Below are positions 57,943 through 59,651 of a DNA stretch of 64,000 bases, in pieces (position 1 is the stretch's first letter; each line of letters opens with the position of its first letter). Under the pieces are notes generated by a model. It was not told where the DNA came from and did not search any database. It was given only the letters and a program-made list of their open reading frames with translations. The DNA is taken from NCBI RefSeq assembly GCF_020150815.1, contig NZ_CP083723.1, positions 2,666,001 through 2,730,000 on the forward strand, read 5' to 3'. The position numbers and the translations under genes are program-made. This DNA is from Haloprofundus salilacus. Its GTDB lineage: Archaea > Halobacteriota > Halobacteria > Halobacteriales > Haloferacaceae.

Positions 57943-58911
57943 TCAGTCGTCGAGCGCGAGCGACGCAAGAAGCGCTTCCAACTGCACCTGTTCGTTCGCG
58001 CCCTCGGTGATGCGATAGTCGGTCTCGCCGATGCGCTCCATCAGGCGGACCGCCGCGCGGTCGTCGAGACCGAACTCCCACACCGAGCGGTGGAGCTGGT
58101 CGATGATGTCGCCGCCGGCCATCCCCACGTCGGTGAGGAGGTAGTCGAGTTTCGAGCGCGCGGCGGCGAAGTCGCCGTCGAGCGCCCGCGTCACCATCTC
58201 TTCGATGTCCTCGGGGCGGGCGGTGGCGGTGATGGCGTAGACAGCCTCCTCGTCGACGACTTCGCCGGTCGTCGCCGCTGCCTGCAGCGAGTTGATGCCG
58301 CGGCGCATGTCGCCGTTAGCCGCGTAGACGAGGGCCTCGGCCCCGTCGTCGGTCAACTCGATTCCCTCCGTCTCGGCGATGTGGCGGACCGTCTCGTCGA
58401 CGGCGTCGTCGCCCAGCGGCGAGAACCGGAAGACGGCGCACCGCGACTGGATGGGGTCGATTATCTTCGAGGAGTAGTTACACGAGAGGATGAAACGGGT
58501 GTTGTCGGAGAACTGCTCCATCGTCCTGCGCAGGGCGGATTGAGCGTCGTTCGTCAGCGAGTCGGCCTCGTCGAGAAAGATGATTCGGTAGTCGTGGCCG
58601 CCGAAGGAGGCACGCGCGAAGTTCTTGATTCGGTCGCGCACCACGTCGATGCCGCGTTCGTCGGAGGCGTTGAGTTCGAGGAAGTTGCCGCGCCAGTCGT
58701 CGCCGTACACCTCGCGGGCAATCGCGGTGGCGCAGGTGGTTTTGCCAACGCCGGCAGGACCTGCGAACAGCAGGTGCGGCAGGTCGCGCTGTTCGATGTA
58801 GCTCTGGAGGCGTTCGACGATGCGGTCTTGCCCGACGACGTCGTCGAGCGTCTGCGGGCGGTACTTCTCGATCCAGATTTCGCGACCCGGCGTTCCCTCG
58901 GCCTCGCTCAT
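57943..58911 (-). CDS. rfcS: replication factor C small subunit
   Basis: A 322-residue clamp-loader AAA+ subunit that loads PCNA. It begins [20 protein letters not shown]. Walker A is [13 protein letters not shown] (Lys57), Walker [10 protein letters not shown], sensor 1 [11 protein letters not shown] and arginine-finger SRC. The C-terminal collar domain follows ([20 protein letters not shown]). No intein is present, but codons for the Walker A loop are AT-shifted (see findings). ATG at 58911. Confidence 0.96.
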
Positions 58912-59023: not shown

Positions 59024-59230
59024 ATGGACGTGAGCGTGGAGATCGTCGGCGAGGAGCGCCGCGAGGTGGCCATCTCCGACGACGCGACGTACGCCGACCT
59101 CGTGTCGGCGGTCGACCTCAGCCCCCACGAGGTGTCGGTGCTGGTCGACGGCCGCCCGGTGCCCGAGGACCAACCCGTCGAGACGGACCGGGTGAAGGTG
59201 CTCCGACTCATCAAAGGCGGCGGTCGGTGA
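59024..59230 (+). CDS. samp2: ubiquitin-like SAMP2-type modifier with non-terminal GG
   Basis: A 68-residue beta-grasp protein reading [40 protein letters not shown] and [12 protein letters not shown]. It is close to what I remember of Haloferax SAMP2 (HVO_0202), which ends at GG. SAMP2 is conjugated to lysines and supplies sulfur for tRNA thiolation through UbaA. Here the gene runs through Gly-Gly-Gly-Arg before TGA, so the reactive C-terminus would need trimming. ATG at 59024. Confidence 0.9.
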
Positions 59231-59252: not shown

Positions 59253-59651
59253 GTGACCGACGACGGACCGACGTCGACCGTCCGCGTCGCCGCGGACGAC
59301 GAACTGGTCGACGTGATGCGCGTGCTCGACGGCGCGGTGCTGGAAATCGACGCCGAGACGGTCGAGACGCGACTCGGAACCGACGCCGTCCTCGTCGCCG
59401 AACGAGACGGACATATTATCGGGGCGCTCGTCCGCGACGGCGACCACGTCGACGCCGTCGCCGTCCGTCGCCAGCATCGGGCGGACGGCGTCGGGAGCGC
59501 CCTCGTCCGCGCTGCACTAGAGCGAACCGACCGCCTGACCGCGGATTTCGACCCGCGCGTGCGACAGTTCTACGAGTCGCTGGGCTTCGAGATAACCGAA
59601 CGCGACGGACGACTGTGGGCCGAGAAGCACAGCAGAAGCGAGGAGCGGTAG
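59253..59651 (+). CDS. GNAT-family N-acetyltransferase
   Basis: A 132-residue acetyltransferase. The acetyl-CoA loop is [20 protein letters not shown] (RxxGxG-type, about 70-89). [17 protein letters not shown] near the C-terminus is the typical GNAT motif B. Substrate unknown. Start is GTG at 59253, 22 bases after the samp2 stop, so they are likely cotranscribed and the pairing may be functional. Confidence 0.85.

Follow-up and report, generated by a model that had tools for sequence, protein, structure and literature searches.

What does a ubiquitin-like modifier need before it can act, when its gene encodes residues beyond the di-glycine? The question is raised by a gene of Haloprofundus salilacus, located in the stretch of 64,000 nucleotides analysed here (the window). 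Its product matches the Pfam family SAMP2 over residues 1-63 (PF21965; E 7.1e-31, 106.8 bits, cut-off 27) and the solved SAMP2 chains of Haloferax volcanii (HVO_0202; 2l32/2lji and 4hrs) over residues 1-66, and the closest named relative, from Haloprofundus marisrubri, is 92% identical over the latter span. An earlier note, based on the letters alone, had described a SAMP2-like protein ending in GGGR instead of GG, with at least one residue beyond the di-glycine. These matches and the frame read through to its TGA bear out the description, and the alignment with H. volcanii SAMP2 adds precision to it. Residues 64-66 correspond to the KGG of 2l32 and 4hrs, and the 4hrs chain ends at the glycine aligned with G66, which places the functional di-glycine at G65-G66 and leaves an extension of exactly two residues, the whole C-terminus reading K64-G65-G66-G67-R68. 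As GR stands behind the di-glycine, which is then not the encoded C-terminus, we file the gene as a SAMP2 precursor and not as mature SAMP2. The H. volcanii protein belongs to the same family over residues 1-66 and has an identical end, and the named Haloferax loci share the neighbours of the window gene (Table 1); the difference is that GG is the end in most of the named Haloferax relatives and in 4hrs, whereas the window gene carries the additional GR. The upstream neighbour at 57943..58911 (-) encodes what we take to be the small subunit of replication factor C (RfcS). No other strong SAMP2 match is present in the genome.

Table 1. Coordinates of the SAMP2 gene, its parts and neighbours, and of related loci (positions in the window unless stated otherwise)
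Feature	Position	Strand	Remarks
Presumed replication factor C small subunit, 322 aa, divergent upstream neighbour	57943..58911	-	match in 71/83 loci around SAMP2; used for the tree
SAMP2 precursor gene	59024..59230	+	68 aa; ATG start; stop TGA 59228-59230; Pfam SAMP2, PDB SAMP2 match
K64-G65-G66, di-glycine corresponding to the end of H. volcanii SAMP2; cleavage proposed behind G66	59213..59221	+	KGG position common to homologues
Tail G67-R68 behind the functional end	59222..59227	+	congeners: RT or SR in this position in one each, no tail in two
Perfect 8-bp inverted repeat, loop = SAMP2 stop codon TGA, overlapping the tail codons	59220..59238	+	sequence
GNAT acetyltransferase, separate downstream gene	59253..59651	+	Pfam GNAT; also matched in 71/83 related SAMP2 loci; counterpart fused in frame behind SAMP2 KGG in genus g13
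JAMM1 of the same genome (P0003)	contig C1:581060-581494, outside the window		HxHx7SxxD; Prok-JAB and JAB domains
SAMP2-peroxiredoxin fusion loci, at least three genera	L021, L022, L024, L025, L031, L033 (from position 2001); L106/L174; L193-L195		linker lengths differ

We propose that SAMP2 of this species is encoded as a precursor, which a cut after K-G-G, most likely by the cell's own JAMM1, would set free to function as in H. volcanii; on comparative sequence evidence we consider this model probable. The GR tail would block the carboxylate of Gly66 and so keep the protein closed to adenylation by the E1-like UbaA until a protease cuts behind K-G-G. By analogy with H. volcanii, the mature SAMP2-GG would then serve protein conjugation and tRNA thiolation. 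Cleavage, its exact site and JAMM1 as its agent are what we infer; the components themselves are encoded. The genome has one E1 (ThiF, E 1.6e-83) and two Prok-JAB proteins above cut-off. The stronger of these, P0003, the counterpart of HvJAMM1 of H. volcanii, scores 69.5 bits for Prok-JAB and 30.2 bits for JAB, matches 5ld9 and 5lda, PDB chains that bear the name JAMM1, in a sequence search (E 2e-7), and contains the segment HSHPESRARPSETD, an intact fit to HxHx7SxxD, which we take to be the JAMM1 motif. Maturation of this kind has counterparts in other lineages. In eukaryotes a protease removes the C-terminal extension of ubiquitin and SUMO precursors and of ubiquitin-ribosomal protein fusions, exposing GG, and the tails of the bacterial sulfur carriers QbsE and HcyS are trimmed to the same effect; in each case a modifier or carrier is made with a tail or a fused protein, as proposed here. 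Closer to SAMP2, PMC4443979 reports that HvJAMM1 cuts a linear SAMP1-MoaE fusion after the C-terminal glycine in vitro, that the cut in vivo is jamm1-dependent, and that SAMP1-MoaE is active only with jamm1, cleavage being undetected without GG. JAMM1 thus frees a SAMP from a linear bond directly behind Gly and yields an active product, as our model would have it, but that substrate was a laboratory-made fusion of SAMP1, whereas the extensions here are natural, belong to SAMP2 and are proposed to be cleaved. PMC4048286 likewise describes HvJAMM1 as hydrolysing linear linkages of SAMP1-3. In Caldiarchaeum subterraneum, genes for ubiquitin-like (Ubl) proteins also encode residues past GG, removed by Rpn11 for ubiquitin and by JAMM for the SAMPs; this is another archaeal group, and neither two-residue tails nor whole-enzyme fusions are described in what is available of that source (PMC6043591). 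Taken together, these accounts of HvJAMM1 and of the Caldiarchaeum JAMM suggest that natural SAMP2 extensions would most simply be JAMM1 substrates.

How common are such extensions? The comparison of SAMP2 C-termini across haloarchaea that the earlier note had suggested was made on 391 genomes from 86 genera, 383 of which have a SAMP2 match. Two DNA patterns, each requiring a sense codon directly behind the KGG end, matched 69 and 21 genomes; G375, with two pattern matches lacking a SAMP2 body, was removed. In-frame residues behind KGG were found by this search at 90 places, in 89 of the 391 genomes (that of H. salilacus among them) and 22 of the 86 genera; a SAMP2 without K before GG, or with a tail starting in Tyr, Cys or Trp, escapes the patterns and is tallied as untailed. 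The core of the patterns fits 78 of 80 named homologues; among these 80, 58 end at KGG, one ends at SGG and 21 have further residues. At the 90 places the tail is two residues long in 29 cases and 3-24 in 42, and in the other 19 it spans 128-219 residues.

These tails were found only in genomes with JAMM1. Some Prok-JAB protein is encoded in all 391 genomes, and the matches fall into two classes; a protein search with P0003 assigned JAMM1 to 295 genomes and found none or a weak match in 96, among them 13 with weak matches only (E 9e-6 to 8e-4), scored as lacking it. By Pfam E-value alone 98 genomes would be in the weak class, and the P0003 search moved two of them, G075 and G353, to the JAMM1-positive side. 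Across the 383 genomes tested (the eight without a SAMP2 match were left out), tailed or fused SAMP2 occurs in 89 with JAMM1 and in none without, and untailed SAMP2 in 199 with and 95 without. The association is strong when genomes are counted singly (Fisher p 3e-13) and persists under stratification by family (CMH p 6e-5), but kinship weakens it, to an exact p of 0.002 by genus unit in the three informative families, and the units may not be independent in their losses of JAMM1. Families f2, f7, f8 and f10 are uninformative, because JAMM1 was lost there and tails appear in neither class. No tail was found among the 96 JAMM1-less genomes, 64 of which were read directly (all GG-stop) and 32 surveyed through the tail patterns that need K before GG. 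A KGG-stop pattern was met in 30 of 41 JAMM1-less genomes, and all 34 SAMP2 genes fetched from such genomes end at GG, including three which that pattern had missed. Since 199 of the 288 genomes with both JAMM1 and SAMP2 are untailed, the tail is optional; the direction of the association would fit tails that need JAMM1 and a JAMM1 that needs no tails. The earlier note's expectation of a JAMM-type protease for a precursor thus gains comparative support, tails having been found only in JAMM1 genomes and HvJAMM1 being reported to cut a linear SAMP1 fusion (PMC4443979). As a separate observation, JAMM1, a known desampylase type, is missing from the 96 genomes, the Haloarcula-type genus g29 included, and only a more distant Prok-JAB protein is kept there.

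A further trace of processing may lie in the residue directly behind GG. In 39 genus-by-residue units it is Ser 14 times, Ala nine, Arg five, Thr and Asp three each, Gly twice, and Glu, Val and Asn once each, so that Ser, Ala or Arg account for 28 of the 39. Pro, Leu, Ile, Phe, Lys, Met, Gln and His are absent (0 against 11.7 expected from 25 ORFs of the window, p 8e-7) in a test designed post hoc, with the data already seen. The excess of Ser is confined to this first position (p 1e-8; positions 2-6, p 0.05-0.31), and the deficit of the eight residues is mild further on (p 0.005 at position 3, 0.06-0.25 elsewhere among positions 2-6). The Ser excess could be partly mutational, because the Ser codons TCN sit one base from stop codons; the Ser codons AGY, the Ala, and the absence of Gln, Lys and Leu are unexplained by this nearness. 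A constraint on the first residue is the pattern that would be expected behind a cleavage site.

In 19 genomes a whole protein stands behind the KGG of SAMP2, peroxiredoxin-like in 11 (Halorussus included) and a GNAT acetyltransferase in eight. The peroxiredoxin-like fusions occur in seven of the eight genomes of g32, the genus that contains Halorussus, in three of three of g4 and in the one sampled member of g18. Their layout is KGG, then about 11-57 residues, then the peroxiredoxin-like domain, which Pfam assigns to AhpC/TSA in the two examples scanned and whose free-standing relatives are present on haloarchaeal plasmids. The GNAT fusions are in frame and found in all eight genomes of g13 (L145-L152; one example scanned). 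Linkers differ in length and sequence, and KGG is kept in 19 of 19. An AlphaFold2 model of a Halorussus fusion to peroxiredoxin (six rows) had a mean pLDDT of 47.8 and was set aside. Natural Ubl fusions with other partners and in other lineages are on record, namely Ubl-MoaE in bacteria and Crenarchaeota (PMC4443979) and Ubl-Cgi121 in Thaumarchaeota (PMC2948915); the available portions of these two papers do not mention SAMP2 joined to a peroxiredoxin or to GNAT. The peroxiredoxin fusions are notable because the eukaryotic targets of Urm1 include 2-Cys peroxiredoxins, according to PMC7016264.

Do the tails have a purpose, or are they merely tolerated? They may hold back activation or fix the dosage of a partner. 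Alternatively they are passengers without a role, the stop codons having been lost by drift wherever JAMM1 trims the product; this concerns purpose, is compatible with the precursor model, and we give it an even chance. Tails come and go, as seen on an RfcS tree of the 56 rows with a long enough RfcS alignment (12 of them tailed), where the tail state changes at least seven times, five of these changes being forced by well supported branches. Such turnover favours passengers, as do the variety of residues among congeners (GR, RT, SR or none) and the absence of tails from most JAMM1 genomes. Their length, however, is not random. When loss of the stop was simulated in 59 untailed named genes, read-through gave a two-residue tail in 0 of 59, with a median gap of 63 codons, whereas 21 of the 59 distinct short genus-by-tail combinations have this length (Fisher p 1e-7), so that plain read-through of a lost stop is rejected as the source of two-residue tails. 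Reading in the +2 frame gives this length in 0 of 59 as well and in the +1 frame in five of 59, so a one-base slip may be the origin of some tails. The long fusions also speak against mere passengers: they are kept genus-wide (7/8, 3/3 and 8/8 genomes), which suggests some benefit, for example coupled dosage.

If the tail is removed, is JAMM1 the only candidate? Removal by another peptidase, be it the second Prok-JAB protein, which is more distant, or a general carboxypeptidase nibbling off GR, would be open to every genome of the sample, since each has some Prok-JAB protein, and a tail of two residues is presumably within reach of a carboxypeptidase. The 96 JAMM1-less genomes, where no tails were found, argue against such a substitute, and a carboxypeptidase could hardly free fusion partners of 128-219 residues, although KGG is kept in those fusions too; we regard this alternative as unlikely. 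Far less probable still is that the tail stays on and leaves SAMP2 inactive in conjugation and sulfur transfer, with other SAMP-like proteins taking over. The genome does encode two more ThiS/MoaD proteins, both untailed, with VSGG and VAGG as their ends, but the body and KGG of SAMP2 are strongly conserved (witness the identity with H. marisrubri), and KGG is intact in all eight genomes of g13, with its GNAT fusion, and all eight of the Halorussus-type genus g32, each with a single SAMP2 match. Selection by the search does not account for this retention, because the patterns found every sampled genome of both genera. The earlier note had left open whether the form made is a precursor or inactive: the precursor is favoured by extensions placed directly behind a kept KGG and by their constrained first residue, and the inactive form is disfavoured by the kept KGG of g13 and g32. 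An error of sequencing or assembly in the last codons is scarcely credible, even with a perfect inverted repeat around the stop, an error-prone kind of place, as the genome is 99.66% complete in two contigs, the frame is intact, and congeners show KGG-RT and KGG-SR, tails of equal length and other residues in intact frames, besides two that end KGG-stop.

What would a cleavable SAMP2 mean for the haloarchaea? Ubl precursors and their processing by JAMM are already known. What appears new, judging from genome comparison, are natural SAMP2 tails in 89 of the 391 haloarchaeal species sampled, the peroxiredoxin-like and GNAT fusions, and the dependence on JAMM1; a literature search whose coverage left subscription papers mostly outside returned no description of a tailed or fused haloarchaeal SAMP2, or of such a dependence. 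Maturation of a Ubl would then be optional and vary with the species, SAMP2 being encoded either with a short tail that can be removed or as a precursor of two proteins (with peroxiredoxin in at least three genera, with GNAT in one), and JAMM1 would be the dedicated maturase required to keep such forms; we hold this wider proposal to be evenly balanced. If it is true, the fusions are the archaeal counterpart of ubiquitin-ribosomal protein precursors, coupling the dosage of SAMP2 to an enzyme of oxidative stress or to an acetyltransferase. The known role of HvJAMM1 is that of a desampylase, which removes SAMPs from their targets. Should SAMP2 be widely encoded in a blocked form, JAMM1 would in those species also be required for the first step of the pathway, a part that deubiquitinases play for ubiquitin, and this would explain the apparent restriction of JAMM1 losses to genomes that encode SAMP2 in its mature form. 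With related species, some of them cultured, forming a natural range from no tail through two residues and 3-24 residues to whole enzymes, the evolution of Ubl maturation is open to direct tests.

Some local features of the 3' end of SAMP2 genes deserve a record. The inverted repeat around the stop of the window gene was weighed as a possible terminator or hairpin with a regulatory role and rejected, with a fold z-score of only -1.09 and no Rfam match; it is probably incidental, because it is not seen in the sequences of the congeners. One genome, G263, has two SAMP2 copies, one with an SR tail and the other with a tail of 17 residues (L208 and L213). In G231 two KGG-stop matches lie 34 bases apart (C1:875973-876030), an arrangement that resembles a partial tandem duplication of the 3' end of SAMP2. 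The tails of genus g2 (L157-L173) are 5-11 residues long and contain small repeats, for example ATDGDATDGGA, as if grown by short tandem duplication.
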